A stretch of 40,160 nucleotides of DNA, taken from positions 1 to 40,160 of the IMG/VR virus record IMGVR_UViG_3300044522_000688; one strand, given 5' to 3'. The first letter of the stretch is position 1; each line of letters opens with the position of its first letter. This DNA is from a virus. Positions 15,635 to 39,779 of the stretch are shown in pieces. Under the pieces are notes generated by a model that was given only the letters and a program-made list of their open reading frames with translations, did no database searches and was not told the DNA's origin. A program made the translations under genes and the position numbers.

Positions 15635-15850
15635 ATGACAAAAATAGAAGAATCAGAAAAGGCGTTAGATATTATAAAAAATTATAAATCTTCATCAAAC
15701 AAAGATTTAATTTTTGTTATGGATTTTATTCAAGAAGATTTTAAATTAACAAAAGAAACTATTATAAAATTAACAGAACATTTAGATAAGGTTGAGGTTA
15801 CCTATAACACGATTTTAAAAGAATATCAAAAAAGAACAAATACTAAATAA
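15635..15850 (+). CDS. Small helical protein between baseplate genes
   Basis: 71-aa, highly charged, predicted all-helical protein (alternating Lys, Glu and Leu/Ile). Its stop overlaps the next start by one base (TAATG), so it is made together with the hub protein. It might be a small assembly chaperone or a short coiled-coil partner; nothing in the sequence identifies it. Confidence 0.7.
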   Translation: MTKIEESEKALDIIKNYKSSSNKDLIFVMDFIQEDFKLTKETIIKLTEHLDKVEVTYNTILKEYQKRTNTK

Positions 15851-17421
15851 TGCAAATAGATAGTCAAAATAAGTATCAAATATTATTTGCCGGTAGAGTA
15901 TACGACAACCAAGACCCCACTATGCTTGGTCGTTTACGTGTTTTACCTGAAAGTAAAGATTATTCCGCAATAATTGGTGCAGTACCTGATTGGTCTGAAG
16001 AGACAGATAAATGGACAAGTAAAGACCCAATTGTCTTTATGCCATTATTACCTTTTTATCTTAGTCAAACACCTAAAATTGACGAATATGTTCATATAAT
16101 TTATATGAACAAAAAATTTCCAAATCAAAATCAATTTTATATTCAAGGGCCTTTTTCTTCACCAACAAAAACATCGTTTGAACAATTTAACGCTTCTCAA
16201 ACTTTTTTAGCGTCAGGTGATAAAATAAAAGAGGGAATATCAATTAAAAATCAAAATGGTGAATATAGAAACCCAACTTTAAATAAGGGTATTTATCCTG
16301 AGCCAGGTGATAACGCTTTATTGGGTAGAGGTTCTGCAGATGTTCTTGTGAAAGAACAAGAAGTGATAATTAGAGCTGGAAAATCAAAACCTCTTACCGG
16401 AGCATTACCGGAAGTCAATACAAAAAGAGGGTTTTTACAATTATCTAATTTCTCAACACAAGAAATTCCTGGAACACCAACAATGGACACTAGATTTGAG
16501 GAAGTTGTTGATATGGTTAAAAAAATGATAATATGGGATATTTCAAATTTAGAGAGTAATTTTAATTTTACCGGAACTGTTAGTTTACATAATGTAATAC
16601 CAAGTATTTCAGTTAACACTAAAAATTTTAAACCGGAAAGTATTACATCTTTAAGTGTTGGAACTAACTATACAAATGCAGTTGAAAGTTATTCTTTTGT
16701 TGGTGATGACTTTGACACTTGTGTTAATAAAATTAATAAATTTATTTCTTCAGTTTTCAACGGTCAGATTGATATTCCGGGATACGCAGTTAAAAATCCT
16801 CAAAATTTTGTAAAAGGAACCAATCTACCTTTAATTGTTACACCGTCAAAATTATCTTATGAAATAGGTAATAATTCTAATCCAAATCCGACAAACATAA
16901 CTGACGCAACAAATTACATTAAATTTTACTCTAAGATTAAATGTAATTCAACACAAACTAAAACCGGTTTTTTTCTAATATCAACAACAAATTCAAAAGG
17001 AGCTCCACTTATAGGACCACAATTTGATAAAAAAAAGGAAATTTCAATATTAAACGATTTTAATAATTCTGATATAACGTATGGGGTATTAGGTAGTCAA
17101 AGAATTTATTTATTATCTCACGATTCTACAGGACCAAAAGGTTTAATTGATTTATCAGAAACCCTTTATGGTATTCCCCAAGATAAATTTGTTAGAGGAG
17201 AAGGAAGTATTCTTAATAAAACTTACCCTGTTGTTAGAGGAGACCAATTGATGATATTACTCCGAAAAATGTTTGCATTTGTTACGGGTCACGTACACCC
17301 AATTGCAACAATGGCACCAGTTCCGGTTGCATCGGGTAATGGACAAACTAGTTTTGAGATAGAAAGTATCTTATCCAATGCGGAAAATGACATACTAAAT
17401 CAAAATATTCGAATTAATTGA
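15850..17421 (+). CDS. gp5-like baseplate hub/central spike protein
   Basis: 523-aa protein. The N-terminus (about residues 9-100) has the OB-fold layout of T4 gp5: FAGRVYDNQDPTMLGRLRVLP, then a PIVFMPLLPFYLSQTPKIDEYVHII strand set and FYIQGPF. The DNALLGRGSADVLVKEQEVIIRAGK part (about 155-180) and the C-terminal FVTGHVHPIA.. segment (about 477-486) fit a central spike or hub protein. T4 gp5 carries a lysozyme domain after the OB fold; I see no lysozyme motif here, so the phage may use a separate peptidoglycan hydrolase. It overlaps the small upstream gene and precedes large fibre genes. Confidence 0.72.
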   Translation: MQIDSQNKYQILFAGRVYDNQDPTMLGRLRVLPESKDYSAIIGAVPDWSEETDKWTSKDPIVFMPLLPFYLSQTPKIDEYVHIIYMNKKFPNQNQFYIQGPFSSPTKTSFEQFNASQTFLASGDKIKEGISIKNQNGEYRNPTLNKGIYPEPGDNALLGRGSADVLVKEQEVIIRAGKSKPLTGALPEVNTKRGFLQLSNFSTQEIPGTPTMDTRFEEVVDMVKKMIIWDISNLESNFNFTGTVSLHNVIPSISVNTKNFKPESITSLSVGTNYTNAVESYSFVGDDFDTCVNKINKFISSVFNGQIDIPGYAVKNPQNFVKGTNLPLIVTPSKLSYEIGNNSNPNPTNITDATNYIKFYSKIKCNSTQTKTGFFLISTTNSKGAPLIGPQFDKKKEISILNDFNNSDITYGVLGSQRIYLLSHDSTGPKGLIDLSETLYGIPQDKFVRGEGSILNKTYPVVRGDQLMILLRKMFAFVTGHVHPIATMAPVPVASGNGQTSFEIESILSNAENDILNQNIRIN

Positions 17422-18947: not shown

Positions 18948-21900
18948 ATGGCAAACAAATTAAATTTTACCGGATGGAGTGGTACTTTTGACTTATCAAA
19001 ATTAAATATTAGTGGTAGAACTCAAAGTTCACCTCAAGAAAATTCTAAAATTATTACAGGACCTGTGGTTATAGATAGTAATAGACCTAAAAAATCAACA
19101 TTAACACCAGGAGTTCAACAACCTCTTGTAACAAGAGTTAAAACAGAACCAAATCCTGATTTTACAAAGGCAACAAAATTATCTAGACAATCTAGATTAT
19201 CTTTAAACTTTAGTTTAGAAAGTAACGGGCTTCCATTTACCGCTGGAACAATTGATACAAGTTTCCCATATAGTGCTAACACAGGTTTTAATGAAGAGGT
19301 AAATGTGGTTAAAGTCCAATCTGATGGTAAAATTTTAGTTGGTGGTTTGTTTAGTTCTTATACTTACGATGAACAAACCTATTTCGCCCCTTATTTGATT
19401 AGATTAAACTCTGACGGTTCACCTGATTTTGATTTTTATTATACAGATAAAGCCGAATCCGAAGGTTGGAATTTAGATGGGTGGGTAGGTACTATTGATA
19501 TACAGTCTGACGGTAAGATTGTAATTGGTGGTAATTTTGAATACTACTATGAAGACATCACTCGGTATTCACCAGGGATTATGAGATTTAATTCTGATGG
19601 TACGTTTGACGATACTTTATTTGTTGGTGAAGGTTTTAATGATGCTGTATCAACGATTATAGTACAACCTGATGGTAAAATATTAGTTGCCGGTTCTTTT
19701 TTGGAATATAATACTGCTTCTGCAACGAGAATTATTAGATTAAATTCTAATGGTAATCCTGATTTAAGTTTTGGGACGGGTAATGGTGTTAATGGTACTG
19801 TTTCCGATATGGTATTACAACCAAATGGTAAAATTATATTAGGGGGTGATTTCTCTCAATATGACGGTGATGACTCAAATAATATAGTTAGGATTAACTC
19901 AAATGGGGGTATAGATAATACATTTGTTGTTGGAGACGGATTTAACGATATGGTAAGGACTTTGGCGTTACAATCTGATGGTAAAGTTATTGTTGGAGGA
20001 GCGTTTAATTATTATAACAATATTGATTTATATAATGGGTATATAGTTAGATTAGGTGCTAACGGAGACATGGACACAAGATTTGGTTATGGATTCGATA
20101 ATGACATTTATTCATTATCTATTCAATCTGATGACAAAATTTTGATTGGTGGTGAAATGGGCGTTTTTAACATAGATAATGATAATTTTTTAAACATTAA
20201 TGCACTTGTTAGATTTCACTCAGATTGCACATTTGATTTTAGTTTTGATTATGATGAAAGTATTAATGGTATTGTTTATTCTATAGAATTAGACTCTGAC
20301 GATAAAATTTATATTGGTGGATATTTTCAAGAAGGCGGAGCACCTTACTTATTAAATTATTTTGGTAGAATAAATAACTCAATTTTAGAATATCCTTATA
20401 CTTACACAGTTGAGGCTTGTGTACAACCTTTAATAGATGAAACAATTACTTATGTGGTTGGTTCTATGACTCCGTTAACAGGAAATGAAACATACTCTTT
20501 TCAAAGAATACAAAATCCATCAATAACCGTATGTGGTAATATAGTTCCAACATATCCATCTAATATTATTGAGTATGTTGCAATTAACTCTTATGTTGAT
20601 TGTGAAGAAGCTTATACATCAAATTATAAAATAGTCGTATTTGAAGATTGTTTGGGTGATTTCTCATCAACACCATTTTGGGTAGTTGATAATAGATTTG
20701 AAATTGGTGATATATTTTATGTAGATTCAGTTATTCAACAAATGGGGATTCTTTTCTTAAAGTTTGCCGCAACAATAATTGATGTTATTCCTTGGTCTGG
20801 AGGGACTGGACCTTTTGGAGATGTTTGGGATTACATCCAACCAATTAATTATGTGACATATTTATCTTGTGATGACGCAATTGAGGCGAATGGTCTTATT
20901 TATGAAGCAAATTCTTGTATATCATCAGGAACGACATATCCTTTAATACATACGGCGTATTATGACTATACAACAATATTGATACCAACTGAAAATAGTC
21001 CAGTTAACGTTATTAGTAATTACTTACCTATAGGTCCTTATGAATTTATTTCAGGTGGAACTCCGGAAATATATAGCACAATAAAAATTGCTGATAATGG
21101 AGATTGTGAGTTAGGTTTATCTAAAATTTCACCAAATGGAATATTAAATGAAAATTTTAACGACGGCGGATTTGGTAGTGGTAACACTTTTGTATATACA
21201 ACAGTAGAACAACCTGATGGTAAATTATTAGTTGGTGGTAACTTTGAAGAATATGATGGATTACCAATGAATAACTTTATGAGATTATCCTCTAATGGTA
21301 ATATTGATGGAACATTTGTTATCGGAGACGGATTTGACGATATAGTATGGGCTTTAGTATTACAATCTGATGGTAAAATATTAGTGGGTGGTGACTTTAA
21401 TGAATATAATGGTGTGGTAACAGGTAATCTCGCTAGATTAAATTCTGATGGAAGTTTAGATGATACATTTTTATTAAATGGTTTTAATTATACAGTTAGA
21501 GCAATTGCTGTTCAAATAGATGGTAAAATTGTTGTTGGTGGAGAGTTTACTCCTCAAATATTAAGAATAAACTCTGATGGAACTCCCGATACCACATTTA
21601 ATCCAAGTAATTTTAATGGTAATGTTCACACAATTAACATAGAAACAATTAGAAACACACCATTCTATGTTACAAATAGTCCAGCAACTTATACAGAAAA
21701 CATTATTGTTGGTGGTCAATTTAGTTCGTATAGTGGAACTAATGTAGGTGGTATTGTTAAATTATCACCAATAGGTAATATATTACCAGATTTTGGTAAT
21801 GGATTTAATCAAGACACAGGTGGTACACCAAGAGTTAATAAAATTGTTCAACAACCGGATGGTAAGTTAATTGTAATTGGTGGTAGTGATGGTCACGACC

Positions 21901-22682
21901 TTAGAGATTATAACGAAACTTGGATTCCACAAAATATTGTTAGATTAGTTAAGGTTAATAATAGATATGTAATTGACCAAACATTTACGACTCAAAATTG
22001 GGATGATAGTCCAATCGGTGGGTTAGGTGGTTCGGCCTTTGCTCTAACAGTATTACCAAATGATAAAATTATGGTTGGCGGATTATTTACTTATTATGGT
22101 GATAATAATACAGGTCATACTACATCGAGTTTAATAAGATTAAATTCTGACGGTACTTTAGACACTACATTTACATTTGAGATATCCGCAGTGACTTATA
22201 CAACACAATTACTATCTTCAGGAGCGTTATTAGTTGGTGGTGGATTTACTTCACCTACTGACCGTTTATTAGAATTGTTTATTGGTGAAGAATATGTATT
22301 ACGTTCATTTACAACTTGTGATGGAAAAACATCTAATATTTTTGTATCAAAAAATTATGAACCAATTAATGAAATCAAAGCAAACGTAAGTGATAGAGTC
22401 GCAGTATGTGGTACAGTTGGTAATGTTATTACAACACCAAATTTAAATGTTGGTACTGGATTCACATTATTCACCGCAACTAACACAACGTCATACAATA
22501 CTTGTGATGAATGTGGTCAGATTTATAAATCGATTTTTTATGTTAGAGATGGAGGGGTTAATATAGATTCAATTAAACAATTTTTATTAACACCTAACTC
22601 AATTTCAGATATAAACACGAAAGGTCCTATATTTACATTAAAAGGTACTGAATGTTATGAATTATTAAAATATTACTATTAA
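18948..22682 (+). CDS. Large fibre protein with delta-60 repeats
   Basis: 1244-aa protein. Two blocks of delta-60 (DUF5122-type) repeats are visible, each repeat about 50-55 residues with the signature QSDGKILVGGxF..YNG and RLNSDGSxDxTF. Block one (about 118-470) has seven copies and block two (about 750-1105) about seven, some diverged. Between them lie about 270 residues with cysteine-bearing segments (SCDDAIEAN, EANSCISS), and the C-terminal 130 residues include FTTCDGKTSNIFV and CDECGQIYKSIFYV. Delta-60 repeats probably build beta-propellers, suited to glycan or protein binding. I read it as a receptor-binding tail fibre or tip protein. The N-terminal 100 residues are Pro/Thr/Lys-rich and may attach to the tail. 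Confidence 0.75.
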   Translation: MANKLNFTGWSGTFDLSKLNISGRTQSSPQENSKIITGPVVIDSNRPKKSTLTPGVQQPLVTRVKTEPNPDFTKATKLSRQSRLSLNFSLESNGLPFTAGTIDTSFPYSANTGFNEEVNVVKVQSDGKILVGGLFSSYTYDEQTYFAPYLIRLNSDGSPDFDFYYTDKAESEGWNLDGWVGTIDIQSDGKIVIGGNFEYYYEDITRYSPGIMRFNSDGTFDDTLFVGEGFNDAVSTIIVQPDGKILVAGSFLEYNTASATRIIRLNSNGNPDLSFGTGNGVNGTVSDMVLQPNGKIILGGDFSQYDGDDSNNIVRINSNGGIDNTFVVGDGFNDMVRTLALQSDGKVIVGGAFNYYNNIDLYNGYIVRLGANGDMDTRFGYGFDNDIYSLSIQSDDKILIGGEMGVFNIDNDNFLNINALVRFHSDCTFDFSFDYDESINGIVYSIELDSDDKIYIGGYFQEGGAPYLLNYFGRINNSILEYPYTYTVEACVQPLIDETITYVVGSMTPLTGNETYSFQRIQNPSITVCGNIVPTYPSNIIEYVAINSYVDCEEAYTSNYKIVVFEDCLGDFSSTPFWVVDNRFEIGDIFYVDSVIQQMGILFLKFAATIIDVIPWSGGTGPFGDVWDYIQPINYVTYLSCDDAIEANGLIYEANSCISSGTTYPLIHTAYYDYTTILIPTENSPVNVISNYLPIGPYEFISGGTPEIYSTIKIADNGDCELGLSKISPNGILNENFNDGGFGSGNTFVYTTVEQPDGKLLVGGNFEEYDGLPMNNFMRLSSNGNIDGTFVIGDGFDDIVWALVLQSDGKILVGGDFNEYNGVVTGNLARLNSDGSLDDTFLLNGFNYTVRAIAVQIDGKIVVGGEFTPQILRINSDGTPDTTFNPSNFNGNVHTINIETIRNTPFYVTNSPATYTENIIVGGQFSSYSGTNVGGIVKLSPIGNILPDFGNGFNQDTGGTPRVNKIVQQPDGKLIVIGGSDGHDLRDYNETWIPQNIVRLVKVNNRYVIDQTFTTQNWDDSPIGGLGGSAFALTVLPNDKIMVGGLFTYYGDNNTGHTTSSLIRLNSDGTLDTTFTFEISAVTYTTQLLSSGALLVGGGFTSPTDRLLELFIGEEYVLRSFTTCDGKTSNIFVSKNYEPINEIKANVSDRVAVCGTVGNVITTPNLNVGTGFTLFTATNTTSYNTCDECGQIYKSIFYVRDGGVNIDSIKQFLLTPNSISDINTKGPIFTLKGTECYELLKYYY

Positions 22683-23355: not shown

Positions 23356-23766
23356 ATGATGAAAATTTTAAGAAGATTAAGAAAAAAAATTAATTATAAG
23401 ATTGTTAAATTCTTCAGAAATCTAACAAGTAATGATAGACCAATACTTGAGGATAATGAAAGAATATGTACATCTGTATGTAGAAAATTAATTAATCACC
23501 CAAGTTCTAAATTTTTAATTGCTCCCCTCTCAATGAAGAGGTATATTAAGAACAGTGAGTTAGAATTATTTATTGTTTTACAAGATAGACAAATTAGTAT
23601 CACTAATCACGTATATCATTATGATGTTGTTATTAGTAATAGAAATTGGGAAAGAGTTACAACTATGTACGATAATAAAACCGAGAAGATTAGACAAGAA
23701 TTTGAAACTGAAATGAGTTCTCAAATAAAACATTCTTTATCAACAATACTATCTAAATTAGATTAG
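23356..23766 (+). CDS. Hypothetical basic protein
   Basis: 136 aa from the ATG at 23356 (a second ATG follows immediately; an in-frame TTG at 23332 lies inside the promoter and is rejected). The first 25 residues are strongly basic (ILRRLRKKINYKIVKFFRNL), suggesting nucleic-acid or membrane-surface binding. The rest is a mixed alpha/beta domain with strand-like segments (ELFIVLQDRQISITNHVYHYDVVI) and a charged helical tail. Not recognised. It has its own host-type -7 element, and its stop overlaps the convergent minus-strand gene by four bases. Confidence 0.7.
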   Translation: MMKILRRLRKKINYKIVKFFRNLTSNDRPILEDNERICTSVCRKLINHPSSKFLIAPLSMKRYIKNSELELFIVLQDRQISITNHVYHYDVVISNRNWERVTTMYDNKTEKIRQEFETEMSSQIKHSLSTILSKLD

Positions 23767-24275
23767 TATTTTTCAGATAAAACCTTTTTAATTAAATCCC
23801 TTAACGATTCGTTTTGGGATTTTTTATTTTGGTTAATATTAAGTGGTTTTCCGGACACAATTTTATTAAACCGACCCGAAGTATCATTTGAGGTTAAATC
23901 TTCGGATATGGTGTCCTGTGTTATCTCAATCCATTCGGTAACGATTGGTACAATCTTTAATTTTTTACCAGGACTCTGATTAATACTATTACCGTCCTCA
24001 TCACTTGATGTTAACTCCGGATGTTTTTCCATATACTTGGAAATTTTTTTAGCTTTAGACTCAATCTTTTTGATTTGTTTTTTTGGTTCATCCATAGACC
24101 CATCATAACTATCATACTCCAACATCGCATCATCATATTTAGAAACAGGGATATTAAACGGTTGCATATCAGATTTTTTAAATATTCTAATTCCCGGTTG
24201 CATTGGACCAACATAAGAACCTCTTCCCCCACCATCACTTGTTCCCTCGTTAATATGTATTTTATTATTTTTCAT
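23763..24275 (-). CDS. Possible capsid-targeted hypothetical protein
   Basis: 170-aa protein, Lys/Ser/Asp-rich and probably partly disordered. Its start, KNNKIHINEGTSDGGG, is strikingly like the capsid protein segment SFLINEATSDGSSG, in which the prohead protease is expected to cut after the Glu; here the cut would be after E10. The C-terminus (ESLRDLIKKVLSEKY) is an amphipathic helix. I infer a protein packaged in the prohead and trimmed by the gp21-type protease, but its function in the virion or new host is unknown. A perfect late-type motif precedes it (24283-24293). The stop overlaps the convergent gene at 23356-23766 by four bases. Confidence 0.65.
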   Translation of the reverse strand: MKNNKIHINEGTSDGGGRGSYVGPMQPGIRIFKKSDMQPFNIPVSKYDDAMLEYDSYDGSMDEPKKQIKKIESKAKKISKYMEKHPELTSSDEDGNSINQSPGKKLKIVPIVTEWIEITQDTISEDLTSNDTSGRFNKIVSGKPLNINQNKKSQNESLRDLIKKVLSEKY

Positions 24276-24307: not shown

Positions 24308-24541
24308 ATGGAACAACAACCTGAAATATTCGGAAAACTATTTGAATCAATCCCCCTACACACTGAAGAACACTTAGATATTCTTTTAGATACTATGGAT
24401 AACGATAGAGCTAGCTACTTTTTAATACACGCCGTTAGACACGCCTTCCATTCTGGAATATACTCTTTGGGTGAAGCCGAAGTGATTTCTAAATCAATTA
24501 GGGTTTTATCTAAAAAAGAAAAAGAGACCGAAGTCTCTTAA
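24308..24541 (+). CDS. Small acidic hypothetical protein
   Basis: 77-aa helical protein (about 40-60 of the residues look helical) with an acidic first half (TEEHLDILLDTMDND) and a basic C-terminus (LSKKEKETEVS). Two histidine-bearing stretches (FLIHAVRHAFHSG) are notable but do not form a known metal site. The family is not recognised. It is divergent from the 170-aa gene and its stop overlaps the convergent metalloprotease gene by four bases. Confidence 0.65.
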   Translation: MEQQPEIFGKLFESIPLHTEEHLDILLDTMDNDRASYFLIHAVRHAFHSGIYSLGEAEVISKSIRVLSKKEKETEVS

Positions 24542-25140
24542 TATTTTATTTTTTTTCTACAATTATCACACATCCATATTGATTCATTATCAATTGTCGA
24601 ACCCTTCCCCTTCGCATCATTCATAACACACTTTTTATTGTGATTACAGTGGGGGACACCTAAAGTATGTCCTATTTCGTGGATAACGACTTTTTCTAAT
24701 TTACCGTAATAATTGGTTCTCATTCTTTTATTAGAAACAACACAGGATTTAGTCCCTAATAATGAAAGACCTATCACCCCCCAATTTTTAAATGTTTTAC
24801 CATTTAATCGTCTATTAGTACAAATATCTAATTGAGTTAACGCGACTACTTTACCATTAGTATTATTAAATTTAGTATTAAGTAGTTTCACTATTTTAAC
24901 CGATGAATACTTTGATAATCCTTTTATTTTACATTCTACGGGCACATCAATTCTTGGTAGAATATTAACTTTACAGTTATAAAACTTTTTAAGATTGTTT
25001 TGAACAAATACCACATCATTCTTGGGAAAATCCCCAATAACCACTATAGATATTTCTTTTGTTTTTGATGTTAATCCTACATAACTTGTTGAAGTTAATA
25101 GAATTATCAAGACAATGATTATTTTATATAAATTTTTCAT
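24538..25140 (-). CDS. Archaemetzincin-like zinc metalloprotease, exported
   Basis: 200-aa protein. Residues 4-22 form a signal peptide or membrane anchor (basic start, then IIIVLIILLTSTSY). The active site is HEIGHTLGVPHC (154-165), the extended HExxHxxGxxHC zinc motif. It continues with C171-V-M173, then 17 residues to C191-D-N-C194, which is the archaemetzincin signature except that five rather than four residues separate the first two cysteines. The upstream LTQLDICTN and FGVIGLS-like strands also fit the family. It should cleave peptides outside the cytoplasm or at the envelope. A host-type promoter precedes it. In a phage it may act on envelope proteins during infection, lysis or superinfection exclusion; the target is unknown. 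Confidence 0.82.
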   Translation of the reverse strand: MKNLYKIIIVLIILLTSTSYVGLTSKTKEISIVVIGDFPKNDVVFVQNNLKKFYNCKVNILPRIDVPVECKIKGLSKYSSVKIVKLLNTKFNNTNGKVVALTQLDICTNRRLNGKTFKNWGVIGLSLLGTKSCVVSNKRMRTNYYGKLEKVVIHEIGHTLGVPHCNHNKKCVMNDAKGKGSTIDNESIWMCDNCRKKIKY

Positions 25141-25178: not shown

Positions 25179-26405
25179 TTACGCAACTCCCGTATTGTTT
25201 TCTCCTATACTTTGAGCCAACATAATTGGGTCTACACATTGTTGTCCATCTCCGTGTAATTTATCAAAAAATTCTGTAGAATTTTGAACTAAAAAACTAC
25301 CTTTCGTTTCTCCCATAACAAAAAGTCTAGCATTTTGTGCCAATTTTTTAACATTAGGGTTATCAATAAATTTAGCTGGAACCCCAACACATCCAAAACT
25401 TTGATTTGCGTATGCAATAGATTTTGCCGAATCTAAATATTCTTGGGGTACTTTCCCTGATGAAATTTGTTTTTTTAATAAAGATTCTAAATCCGCACTT
25501 GCAGTTAATCTATCCGGTAATCCGGCCGGTATTCCGTGAATTGCACTAACAATGTTTTTACCACCACTATCTTTTAAATGAAGAACATTTTTACCTTTTC
25601 CTACATAACCTTTATCACTACTTAAACTACTAATACTATAAATCCCTTTAGGTAAAAATCTAGCAGCAATTTTAGTTAAACTTGAATAGATTGGTTCTGA
25701 TGGTTTACCTGTTGTGGGGTCAGTACATTTATATGGTTCAGATAATAAAAACTTACCATCTTTTTTACTAACTTTACACCAATCCTCAATTGTAAACGGT
25801 TGAGCGTCTTTTTGGACATCAGCACCGTCAACCACTGAAGTATAATCAACTAAAGTTGGTGGTGAAAACCAACCAGTAGATGGTGCAAATAAATAAATTA
25901 AATTTTCTTTAGGGTCATAAATAAAAAATGGTTTATTATCCATATCTCTATCTACGATATATTTAAGTTCTTGGTCAATTCTTGGCGTGTAATTGTATTT
26001 AGAAATTTTTTTAATTTTTTCTTTTTTGGATTGTTCTGTGTTTTTAACTGTCGGAGCAACTTTAGAAACCTTATTTTTTTTAGGTACTTCAACGGTTGTT
26101 TTGGGTGAAGCTCCATAAATTTTATTTTTAACGGATTCAATACCTTTTGATGTTTTTACCTCAATCCAATTTGGTGTATTACCTTCACTTTTTTTTGCGT
26201 ACCAAAATTTATCACCCCATTTCTTATATTGATATGGGTCACCCGCAGGTCCTTGGACTGCGGTGTCTTTTATAGGCGCATTCATCCCTAATGGGTCGTT
26301 ATAATTAAAACCCTGTTCTGATAAGTATTGTCTCTTTGTTGCACTCTCGTGAAGATTTAAAATCCTATCTTTTTCCTCTCCATCCAAGAAATATAAATTT
26401 TTCAT
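25179..26405 (-). CDS. L,D-transpeptidase-like (YkuD-type) protein
   Basis: 408-aa protein. The C-terminal half has the YkuD pattern: a strand region GIYSISSLSSDKGYVGKG (about 254-271), VSAIHG with H290, then 45 residues on SFGCVGVP with catalytic-type C339 (S336-x-G-C), and a KLAQNARLFVMG strand. The order H...S-x-G-C and the following hydrophobic strand are diagnostic; this family links or cuts peptidoglycan stem peptides at a meso-DAP residue. No signal peptide is present. The N-terminus (DRILNLHESATKRQYLSEQG) has LHE and LSE steps like prohead protease sites, so it might be packaged and injected. The central 85-140 stretch is Lys-rich and linker-like. A late-type motif precedes the gene. 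Confidence 0.68.
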   Translation of the reverse strand: MKNLYFLDGEEKDRILNLHESATKRQYLSEQGFNYNDPLGMNAPIKDTAVQGPAGDPYQYKKWGDKFWYAKKSEGNTPNWIEVKTSKGIESVKNKIYGASPKTTVEVPKKNKVSKVAPTVKNTEQSKKEKIKKISKYNYTPRIDQELKYIVDRDMDNKPFFIYDPKENLIYLFAPSTGWFSPPTLVDYTSVVDGADVQKDAQPFTIEDWCKVSKKDGKFLLSEPYKCTDPTTGKPSEPIYSSLTKIAARFLPKGIYSISSLSSDKGYVGKGKNVLHLKDSGGKNIVSAIHGIPAGLPDRLTASADLESLLKKQISSGKVPQEYLDSAKSIAYANQSFGCVGVPAKFIDNPNVKKLAQNARLFVMGETKGSFLVQNSTEFFDKLHGDGQQCVDPIMLAQSIGENNTGVA

Positions 26406-26417
26406 AAAATTCTTTTA

Positions 26418-26428
26418 ATATAAATATC
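26418..26428 (-). promoter_or_regulatory. Late-type promoter motif
   Basis: On the minus strand it reads GATATTTATAT and ends 12 bases before the ATG at 26405 of the L,D-transpeptidase-like gene. Confidence 0.5.
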
Positions 26429-26438
26429 CAATAATTTA

Positions 26439-28148
26439 TTATAATTCTAATCGATATTTAAATAACCCACAATCCCATATTTTGTCATAACCCAATTCAG
26501 ATGTGAGTTCTTTTTCCGTTTTATTATAGTCTAAATCCGGAAATCTTTTTTTAAGATTATTTTTACCAAATCCAAATTTATGAAATCTTTTGTATTTACT
26601 AATTTTTGAATTATAATAATAATAATTTGGTTTTGTTATTGATACTAAATTAAACCCCAAATTAGTATATAGATTATTTTCCGGATTAATTGTCCATCTT
26701 CTATCCGCAAAACTAATTATTGATGTTGGGTTATACTCATTAATAAAATGTTTAATAAATTTAGAGGCTAACCCCCTAATTAAATAATTTTGTTTTGTTG
26801 CGTATCGACTTAATTCAAATTCACCGTCATTATTTTTAGTCATATTTCTACGACTATTAAATGTTATAACACCAACTAACTCATTATTATAATATGCCCC
26901 GTAATATATGTTTGACTTATCGGTACCTTGTATATGATTATTATTTAAAAAAAATGTTTTATCTTCTAAATTTATTTTTTTAATGACAACATTTCTACCA
27001 CCAATTTTAACACCATCATTCACATTTAATAAATGTTTTAATTTTGATTTAACTAATTCGGTATTAACAACCCATTCATCCTCAAAAATATGTATTAATT
27101 TATATCCTATTTGATTACACTCTATTGTTTTATTTAGATGATATGATGAAGTTTTTCCCATTTTTTCTGTGTGATAATATAATCCATCATACTCAATACA
27201 AATATTGGTACCATCAACAATCAAATCAATTTCTTTACCATCTAATAATTTACGATTTTTACCTTTATTAACCATAAACCCAACACTTTCGATAAACTCT
27301 TTAATCTCCGTCTCACCTTTTGATGTCCAAGTAGGTGTCATATTAATGTTTGTTAGTTTCGCTAAATCACTTAAACATTCAGAAATAGATGTTGAAACTA
27401 TTTTTTCATTAGGATATTTTAATTTATATTCTAATGTTGTGATATTATGTTTATTTTTTAAATGAGTGTTTGATATACTTTTCATTTTTTCACCACAAAT
27501 TTTACAAATAACATAATTTTTACTTTTAGATAAAAATTTGGTTAATTCTGTTTTTTTTATATAATTTGGGTGATGTTTAATATCTTCAGGAAATTTTAAT
27601 AAATAATCATCTAATGTTATTTTATGAGATTTACTTATATGTGTCTCAAAACAACCTGTTTTATTTGAAGTGTCTTCTGTTACCCACTCACATAATTTAC
27701 ATTTTCTTGTAGGAGAATTTTCAATCTTAATTATGTTGAAATATTCCTCAAACCACTTTTTGTCGTTAATTAATTCGTATTTTTTTCTTTGGTAAGTATT
27801 GGATGGAATCCATACATCTCCATATAACTCAATAATATGTTTGGTTAATTTACCGGATAAATTATTGGGGTCTTTAATTACCATATTAGTTTTTTTACAT
27901 TGAGCAATTAATTCGTGGGTATCTGAAGTTGTATATAAGTTAGATTTTGTGGTTTCAATTTCAAAACTATTTCCCATTTGGATTTGACCACCTTTTTTAT
28001 TAATCACAATATTATTTTCCTTTAATATTTGACTAATTTTTTTATGACCAACCTTAAATTTTTCGGCTAATTTATGAGTACTCGGAATTTCAGTTTGATA
28101 TAATTCAATAATGTTAATTATAATTTCAGGAGTTAATTTGGTTTTCAT
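26439..28148 (-). CDS. Homing-type endonuclease with Vsr-like (EDxHD) nuclease domain
   Basis: 569-aa multidomain protein. Residues 1-50 look like a helix-turn-helix (STHKLAEKFKVGHKKISQIL). Two C2H2-type zinc fingers follow: CKLC...H169/H174 and CKIC (214-217)...H228/H233, the latter of ROS/MucR spacing. The nuclease part is E280, D307 in GKEIDLIV, IEYDG (E318, D320) and H325, then CNQIGYKLIHIFEDEW, typical of Vsr-like endonucleases used by free-standing phage homing enzymes (EDxHD group). Residues 384-569 form a further domain (FFLNNNHIQG, GVITFNSRR, ELSRYATK) often found C-terminal to such enzymes. It probably cuts an intronless allele near the capsid gene to spread itself. It lies directly downstream of the capsid gene. 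Confidence 0.78.
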   Translation of the reverse strand: MKTKLTPEIIINIIELYQTEIPSTHKLAEKFKVGHKKISQILKENNIVINKKGGQIQMGNSFEIETTKSNLYTTSDTHELIAQCKKTNMVIKDPNNLSGKLTKHIIELYGDVWIPSNTYQRKKYELINDKKWFEEYFNIIKIENSPTRKCKLCEWVTEDTSNKTGCFETHISKSHKITLDDYLLKFPEDIKHHPNYIKKTELTKFLSKSKNYVICKICGEKMKSISNTHLKNKHNITTLEYKLKYPNEKIVSTSISECLSDLAKLTNINMTPTWTSKGETEIKEFIESVGFMVNKGKNRKLLDGKEIDLIVDGTNICIEYDGLYYHTEKMGKTSSYHLNKTIECNQIGYKLIHIFEDEWVVNTELVKSKLKHLLNVNDGVKIGGRNVVIKKINLEDKTFFLNNNHIQGTDKSNIYYGAYYNNELVGVITFNSRRNMTKNNDGEFELSRYATKQNYLIRGLASKFIKHFINEYNPTSIISFADRRWTINPENNLYTNLGFNLVSITKPNYYYYNSKISKYKRFHKFGFGKNNLKKRFPDLDYNKTEKELTSELGYDKIWDCGLFKYRLEL

Positions 28149-28281: not shown

Positions 28282-30132
28282 TTATCTCAATTCTCTTAAG
28301 TCAAATGTTCTTACACCATCTACAGTGATACGTGCGTAAAAACGATTATTTACCATTTTCTTCGCGTATCTCGTCATAATCCCTTTAATTGGTGTAAAAT
28401 TAAATGGGTTATACATTGTAGGAGTTAATTGTAATGGTACGTATGGTGCGTAGATGTATCCTGTGTCTAACAATGATGTTCCTTTATGTCCAATTAACAC
28501 TGTGTTAGCTGGGAAGTAAGGGTCACGGTAAACTTGGTAACGTCCTGCCAATGTTCCAACTCTTTCAATACCCATGTTATATTGGTCTTGTTCAGGAGAA
28601 GCATTAGATACGTGGAAGTACTCTAAATCATCAAAGATAGCAGAAACCTCAGAAGATACAACAATCCAGTTTGCTCCACCTCTTAAAGTAGATTTGTGGA
28701 TTTGTGCAGACAATTGGTTGATTGCTGTAATTAATGTTTGGTTCCAATCTTTTTGAGTATAAGAAGTTGTCAAAGATAAACGTTTCCAACCATTGTAATC
28801 CCATCTCAAGTTCCAAGCAGCACCTTTACGTAAATCTCTTAAGATTTCACGGTCAATTTCAGCAGCAACTTGTTCAGATAATAAAGCTGTTAATTCAGCT
28901 TCAGCATCGATGTTGTGGAAAGCCGCAACGTCTTGAGCTAACTCAGGAGACCATTGTGCTCTTAATTTTCTTTCTGTAACAGAAACAGTAACTGAATCTA
29001 ATTCGAAAGAAACCTCACCGATTTTATCTTCAAATTCTAATTCTTTATATCTTCTGAAAACAGCACTGAAGTCATTATTTGCTAATGTTTCAATTGTTGT
29101 TCCTGTGTAACCGTCTAAAGAGTCAGCGCCACATGAAATACATACAGGACAAGATAAATCAACTTCTAAGTAAATAGTACCTTCGATATCACAGATATCA
29201 TTGTAGCTACCACCATTACCATTAGTTGCCCAAGTAGTAGATGATTGACCACCGTAAGATACGATACCTTTACCATATTGTTGAGTAACAACTCTGAACA
29301 ATAAAGAATTAGCAGTACCTGCAGCGTTAAATACTACATCACAAGGAGAAGCTCCTGACCAAGTACTATCTGTAGCAGTACCGTTAGCGAAAATTTTCAA
29401 ATCAGATAAGAAAGTTTCAGAATCATATTCGTTACCATCAGGTCCGATTAATTTACCAGCACCAGTGTTAGCGAAATTTGTCATTTTAACGATTATTTTT
29501 CTAACGTTAGAATCATCATATGCTCCATCAGCATCGATTAATCCACCATTAGACCATTTTTGAACTGTTGTTGTTGCAGTAACTGCTGACCATTGTCCTT
29601 TAGAATAATCAAACAATCCTGGAGGGTCTAATTGACCTTCATTTCCTTCATAGAATAAATCATAAAGATTTTTCTTGTAAGCTCCAGCGTCAGTTCCGTA
29701 ACCTTGGTTTGCACCATTGTTAGCTGGAGAATAATTACCTGGAGAACCGATTGGTGCATAGTGTTCACCTGATTCAGATGCACTTCCGTTATCATACCCT
29801 TGAATTTTAGGTACAAAGAAGAATAATTTACCGATTGGTAAATTCATTGCTTGTACAGATACGATTTCATTCGCTAATAATTTAGAGAATACTCTTCTTA
29901 CGATAGGGAATACAACAGTTTCGAATGAACCTGAAGACCCGTCAGAAGTAGCTTCGTTGATTAGGAAAGACGCTTGGTTCTCATATAATTGAGCTACGTT
30001 TTCTTTTAAGTGACCTTTAAGTCCTTCTAGGAATCCTAATTTATCCCATTTGTTAATTGTGTCTTCTTTAATAACTTTAAGGTGTTTTAACCCTATGTTA
30101 CCAACTAGACCTGATTCTAATAATGCTCCCAT
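28282..30132 (-). CDS. Major capsid protein (T4 gp23-like)
   Basis: 616-aa capsid protein of the T4 type. Start-proximal GNIGLKHLKVIKEDTINKWDK and ENVAQLYENQASFLINE are followed by ATSDGSSGSFETVVFPIVRRVFSKLLANEIVSVQAMNLPIGKLFFF, the conserved gp23 beginning. The likely prohead protease cut is after E60 (LINE|ATSDG), comparable to T4 gp23 cut after E65, leaving about 556 residues in the mature shell. The central part (about 120-350) carries variable loops with Gly/Ala/Thr-rich inserts, and the C-terminal half has the conserved LRAQWSPELAQDVAAFHNIDAEAEL core. It is transcribed with the scaffold gene, 32 bases downstream of it, and ends at a strong terminator. Confidence 0.92.
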   Translation of the reverse strand: MGALLESGLVGNIGLKHLKVIKEDTINKWDKLGFLEGLKGHLKENVAQLYENQASFLINEATSDGSSGSFETVVFPIVRRVFSKLLANEIVSVQAMNLPIGKLFFFVPKIQGYDNGSASESGEHYAPIGSPGNYSPANNGANQGYGTDAGAYKKNLYDLFYEGNEGQLDPPGLFDYSKGQWSAVTATTTVQKWSNGGLIDADGAYDDSNVRKIIVKMTNFANTGAGKLIGPDGNEYDSETFLSDLKIFANGTATDSTWSGASPCDVVFNAAGTANSLLFRVVTQQYGKGIVSYGGQSSTTWATNGNGGSYNDICDIEGTIYLEVDLSCPVCISCGADSLDGYTGTTIETLANNDFSAVFRRYKELEFEDKIGEVSFELDSVTVSVTERKLRAQWSPELAQDVAAFHNIDAEAELTALLSEQVAAEIDREILRDLRKGAAWNLRWDYNGWKRLSLTTSYTQKDWNQTLITAINQLSAQIHKSTLRGGANWIVVSSEVSAIFDDLEYFHVSNASPEQDQYNMGIERVGTLAGRYQVYRDPYFPANTVLIGHKGTSLLDTGYIYAPYVPLQLTPTMYNPFNFTPIKGIMTRYAKKMVNNRFYARITVDGVRTFDLRELR

Positions 30133-32023: not shown

Positions 32024-32749
32024 TTAGTATCCTAAATAATCGTTTAATTTTTTCATTAAGTCAAGCGATTTGTTTCCAGATTCGCCAACTTGTCTTTCTA
32101 CTTTCATTTTTTTCTCTTCTTCCAAATTCTCATCAAAATTAAACCTATCATCAGGATTTTGAAAAAGGTATGCTCCCGGTGTTGATGGTGATGAAACTAA
32201 GTCAAAACAGATTAATTCAAAATCATCTTGTACTTCATTTTGTTCACCCACTTTTTTAAGAGACCCCACACCTCTTGAAGATATACCCAATGTTACTCCT
32301 TGTCTAAGATAGTTTGCCGCTAAATCACCTTTGGTTGATACAATCCCTCTTTCGTGGAAACCCGGAGATGTTAATAGTTTTATTTTACCCATTAAAACGG
32401 GTCCTTCCCACCATATCTCTGTAATTGCGTGAGATACTCTATCTAAATCAATTAACGATGATTCAGGATGATTTAATTCTGAAAGGGCAGTTCCTTTGTT
32501 AATCATCTTTTTATAGTTCTCGGCCTCTCTTTTTAAGATTCTTTCAGGATACAATCTACCATTTCTATTTGGTGTATTATATTTTTGTAGAACCGCATAA
32601 AATTCAAAAGGTTTTGAATGGTCTAAATCTTCTTTAGACTCTTTAATCATCGCAGCATTTTTCTTATCTGTTGGTGAAATAAATCCGGCATCTTCTTCAA
32701 TTAATATCCCTCTCCCTATTTCATTTGGTTTTAAAATTGTTAAATTCAT
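32024..32749 (-). CDS. Prohead maturation protease (T4 gp21-like)
   Basis: 241-aa serine protease of the T4 gp21 type. Conserved blocks are PNRNGRLYPERI (60-71), ELNHPE (91-96, catalytic H94), the GISSRGVGSL loop (155-164, catalytic Ser at 157 or 158), and DLVSSPSTPGAYL (183-195, the D..V..PS signature). It should cut scaffold and capsid proteins during prohead maturation, after (I/L)xE motifs. The last 35 residues (EEEKKMKVERQVG..LDLMKKLNDYLGY) form a charged helical tail, perhaps an autocleaved scaffold-binding part. The N-terminal ILIE|EDAG segment also fits self-processing. A late-type motif with TATAAATA lies upstream. Confidence 0.85.
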   Translation of the reverse strand: MNLTILKPNEIGRGILIEEDAGFISPTDKKNAAMIKESKEDLDHSKPFEFYAVLQKYNTPNRNGRLYPERILKREAENYKKMINKGTALSELNHPESSLIDLDRVSHAITEIWWEGPVLMGKIKLLTSPGFHERGIVSTKGDLAANYLRQGVTLGISSRGVGSLKKVGEQNEVQDDFELICFDLVSSPSTPGAYLFQNPDDRFNFDENLEEEKKMKVERQVGESGNKSLDLMKKLNDYLGY

Positions 32750-33243: not shown

Positions 33244-33337
33244 TAATTTCCATATTTTCTCGTTTATTTTTTAAAAAAATAGGTGAAAATACCACAATAG
33301 TCAAAACTTTTTGAAAAGATGGGGATATATGTATTAT

Positions 33338-33532
33338 ATGTTAATAGTTAAATTAGATAAAAACACTACGATTGAGCGAGCTTTAAAACTTTATAAAAGT
33401 AAGGTAATAAAAACTCGACAAAGTTCTGAACTTGTTAAAAGAAAAGAATTTGTTAAAGAGTCTGTTATTAAAAGAGCTGAACTTTCTAAGGCAAAGTATG
33501 TCCAAAAGAAGTTTAAGTCGAATAACGACTAA
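33338..33532 (+). CDS. rpsU: Ribosomal protein bS21 homologue
   Basis: 64 aa from the ATG at 33338, which gives the standard bS21 start (MLIVKLDKNTTIERALKLYK). The rest, KVIKTRQSSELVKRKEFVKE and SVIKRAELSKAKYVQKKF, follows the bS21 helix pattern with basic faces. Upstream in-frame TTG (33311) and ATG (33329) are less likely. bS21 binds the 30S platform near the 3' end of 16S rRNA and helps initiation. Numbered from this start, residue 54 is Tyr, the residue reported to cover the anti-Shine-Dalgarno sequence in Bacteroidota ribosomes. The gene runs opposite to the head genes and its stop overlaps that of the convergent 239-aa gene by four bases. It probably competes with host bS21 to bias ribosomes to phage messages. 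Confidence 0.85.
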   Translation: MLIVKLDKNTTIERALKLYKSKVIKTRQSSELVKRKEFVKESVIKRAELSKAKYVQKKFKSNND

Positions 33533-36221: not shown

Positions 36222-39200
36222 TTAATTTACTTTATTCAATACAAAAATATCACTATAAATATTGTTTCCTGTGCTAGCAGTTCCCCATTCAACTGTCACA
36301 TTTAATGTATTACCAATTGTTGTGTCAAATGTTGTATTGTTCACTACATTAAATCCAAATCCTTGAACCGTAGCATTGTTAGTTTTTGTGTAATGAAAAC
36401 TACCTAAAGATACGACAGATGCTACACCAGCAGCTCCAAGTTGTCTAATTGTAAAATCAACATTCAAAGACCATACATCATCTACAATACTATTTCCAAG
36501 ACTTTGAATACCGCTATTTAGAAGAATGGTGGACCCTGCTCTTAATCTAATTATAATAGTTTGATTATTATTAGCATTAATAATACCACCAAAAACACCT
36601 CTAAAGCTATCACCAACACTGAAACCATTAGCTGGTACACTTAATGTACCAACTCCTGTACCAATAAGTGTTGATTCAGTTATTGTATTGGTTACAATAG
36701 TACTGTTAGTTGTTTGAGCAAATAAACCATATGATATTGATGGTGGTAAAACTGGTGAACTTCCACTTGTTCCACTAGAACCATTCGCACCTGATGTTCC
36801 TGATGTTCCACTAGAACCATTGGTTCCTGATGTTCCCGATGTTCCGCTAGAACCATTCGCGCCTGATGTTCCCGATGAACCACTAGTCCCTGATGAACCA
36901 TTCGCCCCACTCGTTCCCGAAGAACCGCTTGAACCATTTCCTCCGGCAGCACCTTCTAAATTAACCGTCCAACCTGAATATGACCCACTACCAGTTATTG
37001 TTTCAACATCAACAACCATATCACCATTTGACGAGTTATAACTAACAACCATACCAATCATATGATTTGAGAGGTCATAGGCTATAATTACGTCTTGAGC
37101 AACACTATAACCTAAGTTAGCACCAACGACAAAAGTACCAGTACTTCCTGTTTGGATTGTTAAAGGTGTTGTAGATGTTGTTCTATATAAATCTCCTGAA
37201 AAACCACTAGTCCCTGATGAACCACTAGTTCCTGAACTACCACTCGTCCCCGAAGAACCACTAGTTCCTGATTCACCACTTGTTCCCGAAGAACCGCTAG
37301 TTCCTGATGAACCATTTGCTCCACTCGTCCCCGAAGAACCACTAGTTCCTGATTCGCCGCTTGTTCCCGAAGAACCGCTAGTTCCTGATGAACCTGATTC
37401 GCCGCTTGTTCCACTTGTTCCTGATGAACCTGATTCGCCGCTTGTTCCTGATGAACCTGATTCGCCGCTTGTTCCACTCGTTCCCGAAGAACCATTGGCT
37501 CCACTCGTTCCCGATGAACCACTTGTTCCGCTAGAACCATTCGCCCCACTAGTCCCTGAAGAACCGCTTGAACCATTTCCTCCGGCAGCACCTTCTAAAT
37601 TAACGAGCCAAGATGAATAATTCCCCGAACCTGTAATATTGCTAATATCAACAACCATATCACCATTTGACGGGTTATAACTAACAACCATACCAATCAT
37701 ATGATTTGAGAGGTCGTATGATATTATAATATCTTGAGCAATACTATAACCTAAGTTAGTCCCAACAACAAAAGTTCCAGTACTTCCTGTTTGAATTGTT
37801 AAAGATGTTGTAGATGTTGTTCTATATAAATCCCCTGAAAATCCACTAGTTCCTGATGAACCACTAGTTCCTGATTCGCCGCTTGTTCCACTAGTTCCTG
37901 ATGTACCATTAGTAATCGCAGGTGCAACCACCAACAACCCATCTGAACCAACACAAACTGAACACCCTGATGAACTATTAAAACTACATACCGATAAGTC
38001 ATTAACAAATGTCGTACATGCTCTGTTTGCTGTAACATTACTACCAATTATGTTAGAGTGAGTAAATCCTGATGATATTGTATTACAATAACCACCAAGA
38101 ATTGATGAACATGCACCCATTGCGCAGTTTCTAAATCCACCACCAATAGTAGATAATCTACCAGCATTACAACAAGTAATTGTGCCAGTTAAATCTCCAG
38201 TAGTAGCGTTAAATGTTCCACCTGAAGTATTGTGTCCAATACCTCCACCAATTGTTGCACCTAATGAACAACATTCGTTTGTTGGTGATTGAATTATATT
38301 TCTTTGACCTCCTCCAATAAATGAAAACCTTGAATTTGTTATGTTGCAACATCCACCACCAATTACCGAAGACTGTCCACTAGCATTATTAGTATCACCA
38401 CCACCAACAAACGAATAAAATCCGCTTGTATTTTTACGACCACCGCCAATTACAGCAAAAATACTAGTCGTTGTGTTTCCACTACCACCACCGATAGCTG
38501 ACCCATCGGGGGTAAAAAAGTTGGAAAAAGTCGCAGTTCGATTATTACAACCACCAGCGATAGTTGAACCATTTGAATAGCTACCAATCACATTAGTTAT
38601 CCCACCCCCAATGGATGAACCTGTCGCATAATAACCTACCTGATTCCCACTTCCACCGCCTATAGTTGCAAATGAACCGTATGTACAAATTTTGTTTCCA
38701 CCTCCACCACTAATAGTTGAACGGGACCCGCAAGAATAAATTTGATTACCCCAACCCCCACCAATGGTTGCGCATTTTGAATCTACACAAATTCGATTAC
38801 TTTCACCACCACCAATGGTTGAATAACATGAACCGGAGAAAATTATATTATCATTTCCACCACCAATTGTTGAATATAATGAATTGGAACACATTTTATT
38901 ACAATAACCACCACCAATGGTTGAATTGGATGACCTAATTACATTACCATAACCACCACCAATGGTTGCATCACTTGCAGATATAATATAATTGTACCTC
39001 CCACCACCAATGGTTGAAATGCTTGAACCGTCTTTAATTTTATTATAACATCCACCGGAAATGGTTGATTTGTTTGAATTGTTACAAATGTCATTATAAC
39101 ATCCTCCACCAATTGTTGAATAGGATGAATTAGAACAAATTGTATTAACACATCCTCCACCAATTGTTGAATGAGTTGAACCGGAACAAATTCTATTATT

Positions 39201-39779
39201 TTGACCACCACCAATGTTTGAATAACTAGATTTGATTATATTAAATCGACCACCAGCAATCGTTGACTGAGTAGACCCTGTTGAAATAGTATTACAATAA
39301 CCACCACCAATCACTGTTAAACAACTATTCGTTGTGTTTCCACTACCACCACCAATAGTAGAAAAATTTCCTGTAACGCGATTTAAATAACCACCTCCAA
39401 TAACAGATGCACAACCGGAAGCACTATTTTGACAACCACCTCCAATTGCAGAAAAGCCACTACAAGTAATTTGATTAAATTTACCACCGTTAACTGTAGA
39501 AAAATCAGTAAAAACACTGTTTCCACAACCACCTAATACGGCCGAATAATTTCCGGATGCCGTATTGCTAACTCCACACCTAACCGATGAATTATTACCA
39601 CCACCTAATATAATAACCGCAGGTGAACCACTGTCACCCGAAAATTGTTGAGTTAATGCTGAAAAATAAATTGAATTGGTTTCTCCTGACGGGATAACAT
39701 CGTAGTTTACAATAACCATCAACGATTCTGGTTGACCGGATAATGCTAAGGGTAATTGTGATATAGGTAAATTAGGCAT
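36222..39779 (-). CDS. Long tail fibre with YadA-head-like and collagen-like repeats
   Basis: 1185-aa fibre. Residues 1-55 are a tail-attachment type start (MPNLPISQLPLALSGQPES). About 60-600 hold some 25 copies of a short motif (STIGGGxxNxI) of the YadA-head/Hep_Hag left-handed roll type. About 625-1010 are Gly-X-Y collagen-like stretches (GTSGSSGTSGESG) interrupted twice by the same 85-residue module (TTSTTSLTIQTGSTGTFVVG...). The last 150 residues form a beta-rich tip (GVGTLSVPANGFSVGDSFRG, TIIIRLRAGSTIL, HYTKTNNATVQGFGF). Such trimeric fibres bind host surface glycans or proteins. It follows two bases after the stop of the gene at its right and is near the end of a minus-strand run. Confidence 0.85.
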   Translation of the reverse strand: MPNLPISQLPLALSGQPESLMVIVNYDVIPSGETNSIYFSALTQQFSGDSGSPAVIILGGGNNSSVRCGVSNTASGNYSAVLGGCGNSVFTDFSTVNGGKFNQITCSGFSAIGGGCQNSASGCASVIGGGYLNRVTGNFSTIGGGSGNTTNSCLTVIGGGYCNTISTGSTQSTIAGGRFNIIKSSYSNIGGGQNNRICSGSTHSTIGGGCVNTICSNSSYSTIGGGCYNDICNNSNKSTISGGCYNKIKDGSSISTIGGGRYNYIISASDATIGGGYGNVIRSSNSTIGGGYCNKMCSNSLYSTIGGGNDNIIFSGSCYSTIGGGESNRICVDSKCATIGGGWGNQIYSCGSRSTISGGGGNKICTYGSFATIGGGSGNQVGYYATGSSIGGGITNVIGSYSNGSTIAGGCNNRTATFSNFFTPDGSAIGGGSGNTTTSIFAVIGGGRKNTSGFYSFVGGGDTNNASGQSSVIGGGCCNITNSRFSFIGGGQRNIIQSPTNECCSLGATIGGGIGHNTSGGTFNATTGDLTGTITCCNAGRLSTIGGGFRNCAMGACSSILGGYCNTISSGFTHSNIIGSNVTANRACTTFVNDLSVCSFNSSSGCSVCVGSDGLLVVAPAITNGTSGTSGTSGESGTSGSSGTSGFSGDLYRTTSTTSLTIQTGSTGTFVVGTNLGYSIAQDIIISYDLSNHMIGMVVSYNPSNGDMVVDISNITGSGNYSSWLVNLEGAAGGNGSSGSSGTSGANGSSGTSGSSGTSGANGSSGTSGTSGESGSSGTSGESGSSGTSGTSGESGSSGTSGSSGTSGESGTSGSSGTSGANGSSGTSGSSGTSGESGTSGSSGTSGSSGTSGSSGTSGFSGDLYRTTSTTPLTIQTGSTGTFVVGANLGYSVAQDVIIAYDLSNHMIGMVVSYNSSNGDMVVDVETITGSGSYSGWTVNLEGAAGGNGSSGSSGTSGANGSSGTSGSSGTSGANGSSGTSGTSGTNGSSGTSGTSGANGSSGTSGSSPVLPPSISYGLFAQTTNSTIVTNTITESTLIGTGVGTLSVPANGFSVGDSFRGVFGGIINANNNQTIIIRLRAGSTILLNSGIQSLGNSIVDDVWSLNVDFTIRQLGAAGVASVVSLGSFHYTKTNNATVQGFGFNVVNNTTFDTTIGNTLNVTVEWGTASTGNNIYSDIFVLNKVN
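36922..37230 (-). repeat. Direct repeat copy A inside the fibre gene
   Basis: A 309-base unit that recurs at 37561-37869, offset by exactly 639 bases (213 codons), so the frame is kept. It encodes the approximately 85-residue module between collagen-like stretches. The copies differ at scattered positions (for example GTTAAAGGT versus GTTAAAGAT), which shows an older duplication followed by drift. Confidence 0.8.
37561..37869 (-). repeat. Direct repeat copy B inside the fibre gene
   Basis: Second copy of the 309-base module described for 36922-37230, separated from it by about 330 bases of collagen-like GlyXY coding sequence. In-frame length change by recombination between copies is possible. 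Confidence 0.8.
38060..39580 (-). repeat. YadA-head-like repeat region of the fibre gene
   Basis: Short degenerate repeats, each near 60 to 85 bases, built around ACCACCACCAATNGTTG on the plus strand (minus-strand product STIGGGxxN). They account for the low-complexity look of this stretch and for several spurious open frames on the other strand. Confidence 0.75.

Follow-up and report, generated by a model that had tools for sequence, protein, structure and literature searches.

A gene at 25179..26405, on the minus strand of the viral record IMGVR_UViG_3300044522_000688, encodes a 408 aa protein (P0001) that resembles an L,D-transpeptidase (LDT) and is the subject of this analysis. How would such an enzyme, made by a phage, get to a substrate in the periplasm? 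The first-pass annotation of the analysed stretch of DNA (40,160 nucleotides, here called the window) had read the protein as a YkuD-like enzyme that was either delivered with the virion or exported by another route. The open reading frame was intact on the minus strand, with H290-G291 and S336-F-G-C339 at exactly the positions first described. We searched the P0001 N-terminus by hydropathy for an extracytoplasmic signal or anchor and found no hydrophobic stretch. The best N-terminal 10 residue segment scored -0.17 as compared to +3.7 in the secreted neighbour, in agreement with the absence of a signal peptide or TM-like stretch. A late-promoter motif had also been described before the LDT gene, and this part of the description did not hold up. 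The exact copy of the octamer TATAAATA near the gene (26419-26426) was on the opposite strand and none was present on the coding strand in the 100 nt upstream of the gene. The octamer occurred 13 times in the window as compared to 11.8 expected, and with this chance-level count and the wrong strand a late promoter of the LDT gene was not supported. Of the 41 called window genes, 4 had the same octamer in the 100 nt before them as compared to 1.1% of random positions, suggesting that a late-type promoter motif may exist elsewhere in this phage, though not before the LDT gene.

The phage, its host and the neighbouring genes

Profile matches to head genes identified the window as a fragment of a T4-like myovirus genome. 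These were to a gp23-type major capsid protein (28282..30132, minus strand; PF07068, 1.3e-73), gp20 (8.7e-77) and a gp21-type prohead protease of the Peptidase S77 family (32024..32749, minus strand; PF03420, 6.5e-24; phrog_207, 5.5e-43). A ribosomal protein bS21 homologue (33311-33532, plus strand; 2.9e-7) lay on the opposite strand amid the portal, protease and capsid genes. Myoviruses of freshwater Bacteroidetes that encode bS21 have been described (PMC9723584), and as the gene order of the window is that of these phages, the window phage is likely a large T4-like myovirus of a Bacteroidota host. The hub protein had been said to lack a lysozyme, and consistent with this no Pfam lysozyme domain was detected in the hub candidate at 15850-17421. 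Two large repetitive proteins are encoded at 18948-22682 (plus strand) and 36222-39779 (minus strand), one a DUF5122 beta-propeller repeat protein (7e-106), the other built of IGGGxxN and SGTSGSSG repeats. In a 569 aa protein encoded between the capsid and LDT genes (26439-28148, minus strand), zinc-finger-like repeats occur together with MTES_1575-type nuclease and GNAT-like matches, and the protein looks like a homing-type endonuclease fusion.

Copies of P0001 with 95-100% identity were found in four further IMG/VR viral contigs, along with a homologue of 66% identity in contig L006 and a divergent homologue in contig L116. No relatives of the C-terminal domain were found in bacterial genomes, plasmids or named phages. 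Among the 591 proteins called in five related genomes, the pattern HG-x(10-60)-S-x-G-C matched only 3, each of them P0001 or its homologue. One locus, flanked by an M20-like peptidase gene and a ClpC-type gene, was occupied in different phages by a P0001-type protein (genome G003), an L116-type protein or a Tlde1-type fusion.

The LDT gene was accompanied by a second gene, 38 nt downstream of it in the window, encoding a secreted archaemetzincin-like metalloprotease (M54; 24538..25140, minus strand) with a strongly hydrophobic, signal-like N-terminus (HEIGHTLGVPHC). This protein matched PF07998 (2.5e-9) and the NCBIfam model archmetzin (1.6e-26, below its cut-off). A search with the M54 protein itself placed its gene directly after the LDT gene in 6 of 6 contigs, with a gap of 38-40 nt. 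The pair occurred in two genomic contexts, adjoining the capsid gene in the window but the ClpC-type gene in both G003 and L116, and in the records searched the M54 gene accompanied only P0001- or L116-type domains and not the Tlde1 type. We infer a joint role of the LDT and M54 proteins in the periplasm.

The C-terminal domain and its likeness to YkuD enzymes

Pfam, PHROGs and NCBIfam searches gave no match in P0001, including its module at aa 51-97. The models PF03734, PF13645 and PF10908 did not match P0001, P0002 or L116, and a PDB sequence search with P0001 was also negative. Profile-profile alignment (hhalign) against pooled YkuD/YkuD_2 families supported a divergent YkuD-like domain at about aa 158-365 (25311..25934, minus strand). 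The alignment of P0001 placed SFGC on SxGC with an E value of 0.001 and a score of 30.8, as compared to a maximum of 23.1 in 150 shuffles. When L116 was added the E value was 3e-4 and the score 34.4 (maximum of 20.5 in 100 shuffles) with the catalytic residues in register, in a set-up of limited power, where comparisons among known YkuD families did not score higher.

The L116 homologue, found via its neighbouring gene, has the same position and tag as P0001 and is 26% identical to it over the aligned core (BLASTP E 0.003). Conservation between the two included P252, G254, G266-Y267, H290-G291, G338-C339, V342 and F346-I347. P252-K-G254 (25644..25652, minus strand) matches the TPxGxY-type strand of YkuD/Tlde1 enzymes and aligned with IPxGxYS of the tagged proteins L008 and L092; P252 and G254 were invariant in P0001, P0002, P0003 and L116. 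The putative catalytic histidine in H290-G291 (25533..25538, minus strand) was likewise invariant, L116 included. S336-F-G-C339 (25389..25400, minus strand), with the putative nucleophile Cys339, aligned with the SxGC of YkuD families; S336 was replaced in L116 (GSGC) and G338-C339 was invariant. HG and GC were both kept in L006 and L116. The spacing from H290 to C339 was 49 residues, and 32 in L116. The published LD-TPase motif is H-x(14-17)-(S/T)HGC (PMC9638812), and the P0001 spacing falls outside its 14-17 range.

Structure prediction was carried out in two AlphaFold2 runs, one with three close homologues as input and one with distant YkuD rows added, which made it partly circular by design. 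Both models were of low confidence (mean pLDDT 45.2 and 37.4) and neither gave a Foldseek match at E<=0.001. The assignment to YkuD-like enzymes therefore drew support from residue conservation in L116, the profile-profile alignment and the tagged sister fusions that carry Tlde1/YkuD domains, and received none from structure prediction (pLDDT 45 and 37). Together the sequence comparisons suggest that the C-terminal domain of P0001 is probably a divergent YkuD-type L,D-transpeptidase.

The N-terminal tag and the proteins that carry it

The first 30 residues of P0001 (MKNLYFLDGEEKDRILNLHESATKRQYLSE; 26316..26405, minus strand) resemble a capsid-targeting propeptide, as had been noted from the window. 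A profile of this tag matched 14 of 591 N-termini in the five genomes and 0 of 1097 internal 70-residue windows. Within single related genomes the first 31-34 residues recurred on further unrelated proteins; this sharing was seen in the relatives, the window fragment itself holding one such long tag. Searches with the protein and with its alignment also returned contigs that share just the first ~100 residues with P0001 and have different C-termini. In these the tag is followed by a module (aa 51-97, QGPAGDPYQY...YAKK...W...KGI..K.KI; 26115..26255, minus strand) and then by many different C-termini across relatives. Tag-against-tag comparison gave a median pS of 0.53 and a median pN of 0.17, and pN was the lower of the two in each of the 55 pairs, indicating that it is the peptide and not the DNA that is conserved. 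By this measure the tag is under purifying selection at the peptide level. A DNA-level element at the shared N-terminus, such as a translation-start element, was ruled out because synonymous change exceeded replacement change in all of these pairs. The resemblance first described was thereby strengthened to a genuine shared N-terminal peptide family. Other N-termini in the related genomes (LTExDL...IxEQ, ...GYKxGxVISEQ and ...LLSEQ) look like further tag classes.

The tag ends in a predicted prohead-protease site, L28-S-E30↓Q31 (26313..26324, minus strand; the arrow marks the cut), that fits the T4 gp21 motif L/I-x-E. This motif was kept in nearly all tags seen and was followed by Q (YLSE↓Q in P0001). 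In genome G006, [LIVM]-x-E↓Q was enriched at residues 15-43 as compared to positions >60 (odds ratio 3.2, p 1e-4). Enrichment at residues 15-43 was stronger in G003 and G010 combined (odds ratio 7.4, p 1e-6) and was not significant in G000 and G001 alone. At these residues no enrichment was seen for control motifs, among them [LIVM]xD↓Q and [LIVM]xK↓Q. A gp21-type protease was found in 9 of the 14 related records, a set that includes several fragments. The window gp23 also has a predicted processing site region (29950..29964, minus strand) ending L-I-N-E60↓A61, the same motif as the tag end. In a pairwise alignment its FLINE60↓A fell on FLTE↓A of T4 gp23, which we take to be the T4 cut site, given also the 65-residue propeptide stated in PMC9026906.

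In T4, gp21 cleaves head proteins after L/I-x-E and removes N-terminal propeptides of 7-65 residues from the proteins of the mature virion (PMC9026906). The propeptides of the T4 internal proteins (IPs) are capsid-targeting sequences and can bring foreign proteins into the head (PMC9026906). Given the tag motif, the S77 protease and the matching gp23 site, a capsid-targeting role is the natural reading of the tag. It is probably a T4-like capsid-targeting propeptide that would load cell-wall enzymes, P0001 included, into the virion. A second candidate for gp21-type processing in the window is a protein at 23763..24275 (minus strand) with a 10-residue tag (MKNNKIHINE↓GTSDGGG; MKNNKIHISE↓ATSTSSG in its G006 homologue). 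The T4 IPIII targeting sequence has this same length of 10 residues.

Cargo was assessed on 31 tagged proteins from G006, G003 and G010, picked by eye as N-termini ending in [LIVM]xE, for most of them with domain matches not consulted. PG_binding_1 was detected in 4 of the 31, and Phage_lysozyme, thioredoxin and PPK2 in 1 each. No cell-wall family was among the best 25 of the 51 families that matched 75 untagged controls, the 26 others being weaker. For the families listed, cell-wall domains were present in 5/31 tagged proteins as compared to 0/75 controls (p 0.002), or 1/76 (p 0.008), the control list being a random one trimmed by hand, with the secreted YkuD_2 gene of G006 among those left out. 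The controls may include weak cell-wall matches among the 26 further families. The PG_binding_1 match of the tagged protein in L050 reached 9e-17. Two further tagged proteins, L008 and L092, were fusions of an N-terminal part as in P0001 to a clear Tlde1/YkuD domain (4.7e-8/8.9e-7 and 9.4e-9/1.3e-6, respectively).

Several relatives contained other genes of this kind. The tagged Tlde1/YkuD proteins of L008 and L092 adjoin a phage YkuD_2 enzyme whose N-terminus looks signal-like (PF13645, 4.2e-45). YkuD_2 genes placed next to a tagged Tlde1/YkuD protein lie at L047:3934-4437 and L092:3001-3504. It had also been suggested that P0001 may stand in for the lysozyme missing from the hub. In relative G010 a comparable tag precedes a Phage_lysozyme domain, and at L076:9245-10132 such a domain follows a tag-like N-terminus (MKIIDILQKIILKE↓Q). 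Tag-like N-termini were also present on a PPK2 polyphosphate kinase (L076:8146-9255; 7.9e-73) and on a thioredoxin-like protein (L061:14894-15274), both of them possible non-cell-wall cargo.

Proposed role, alternatives and known systems

We propose, with a probability of about 0.5, that P0001 is a prohead-targeted, virion-delivered YkuD-like cargo protein of a T4-like Bacteroidota myovirus. The tagged protein would be synthesized late, and residues 1-30 would act as a capsid-targeting propeptide that brings it into the prohead core. During head maturation the gp21-type protease would cut after E30 (YLSE↓QG). The mature protein, consisting of the module of ~45 residues and the YkuD-like domain with its His290/Cys339 pair, would then exit the head with the DNA, get to the periplasm and act on peptidoglycan stem peptides. 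The chemistry could be L,D-transpeptidation, L,D-carboxypeptidation or D-amino-acid exchange, and the effect either easier passage or a wall that is resealed or altered. The neighbouring secreted archaemetzincin would probably be active in the same compartment. Of the two routes first suggested, delivery with the virion gained from the shared tag ending in a protease motif, the gp21-type protease in the genome and the cell-wall domains on other tagged proteins. The reported destination of T4 internal proteins is the cytoplasm (PMC9026906), and for an enzyme with a periplasmic substrate a further step would have to follow. This topology is the main weakness of the delivery mechanism. No virion proteomics was found for the window phage.

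The tagged thioredoxin and PPK2 suggest that some cargo is cytoplasmic, which counts against the proposed role. P0001 could be injected and work in the host cytoplasm, its YkuD-like domain repurposed for a substrate that is not mature peptidoglycan, in line with where the T4 internal proteins go (PMC9026906). Since the remaining enzyme and binding domains identified on tags relate to peptidoglycan, we regard this as quite unlikely. Another reading keeps the tag as a true processing or targeting signal and makes the YkuD-like domain a structural head or core component, binding peptidoglycan or a virion part without catalysis. The divergence of the domain, its unusual H-C spacing and the lack of a Pfam match would fit, as would the tagged proteins that carry only binding domains such as PG_binding_1. 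However, H290, G291, G338 and C339 survive in a homologue that is 26-33% identical and in which most other residues have changed, making a non-catalytic role improbable.

The enzyme could also remodel the wall or promote lysis late, from inside the cell, after export without a signal peptide, the tag serving for example to interact with a phage assembly complex. A signal-bearing YkuD_2 enzyme beside the tagged Tlde1 protein of a relative makes wall remodelling during infection plausible in this clade, and the partner M54 protease has a signal-like N-terminus as well. But signal peptides already serve the secreted enzymes of this clade, suggesting a different route for the tagged version, and the tag ends in a head-protease motif; we consider such export unlikely. 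That the domain is not YkuD at all, and that its HG and SFGC motifs are coincidental, would explain why neither a family match nor a confident fold was obtained. Against this stand the order of the motifs, the P-x-G strand, the conservation in L116 and a profile-profile score of 34 as compared to a shuffle maximum of 20.5, and we consider coincidence very unlikely.

Delivery of P0001 by the virion thus remains our preferred reading, and the tag system with its cell-wall cargo is of more interest than the single LDT gene. In T4 a short peptide steers cargo into the phage head, and the natural cargo is limited to few and poorly understood proteins. In the uncultivated Bacteroidota phages considered here, one tag is found on many unrelated proteins. 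Several of these have cell-wall domains, transpeptidases among them, and together the tagged proteins form a list of candidates for injection that can be tested directly. As a tentative generalization, large T4-like Bacteroidota phages may have a capsid-targeting tag that is modular and swappable, and with it pack a changing set of cell-wall effectors into the head for injection. The set would comprise at least three types of L,D-transpeptidase, lysozyme and proteins that bind peptidoglycan. Such phages would parallel type VI secretion systems (T6SS) with their modular effector arsenals, and the editing of peptidoglycan cross-links would be part of infection. This would be a possible new infection chemistry in which stem-peptide cross-links are edited and the glycan is not cut. 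If true, the tag could help annotate many as yet uncharacterized phage proteins as virion cargo.

Among known systems, T4 IPI/IPII/IPIII and Alt share with the proteins described here a common short N-terminal peptide ending in L/I-x-E on unrelated proteins, in a genome with a gp21-type protease and gp23. The tag is about 30 residues as compared to the 10 that T4 IPIII needs, and the tagged proteins, known from sequence alone, are many more, larger and rich in cell-wall domains. The bS21 myoviruses of freshwater Bacteroidetes have bS21 placed as in the window, on the strand opposite to the portal, protease and capsid genes that surround it, and the portion of their description covered here makes no mention of tagged cargo or L,D-transpeptidases (PMC9723584). 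With YkuD (PF03734; for example E. coli LdtB) and YkuD_2 (PF13645), P0001 has in common the order and register of the PxG strand, HG and SxGC, and SFGC is also found in the phage YkuD_2 protein of L092. Unlike these families P0001 has no Pfam match, a 49-residue H-C spacing and no signal peptide. Tlde1 proteins (PF10908) are type VI secretion effectors, altered LD-TPases that are delivered to the target cell by a contractile phage-tail-like machine (PMC9638812). L008 and L092, the tagged sister proteins, have Tlde1_dom matches whereas P0001 has none, and its proposed delivery is from a phage head and not by a T6SS. Wall-active enzymes that belong to the virion or are ejected from it include T4 gp5 lysozyme and T7 gp16. 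As compared to these virion-associated hydrolases, P0001 would perform transpeptidase or exchange chemistry in place of glycan hydrolysis, and would travel as head cargo and not as a tail part.
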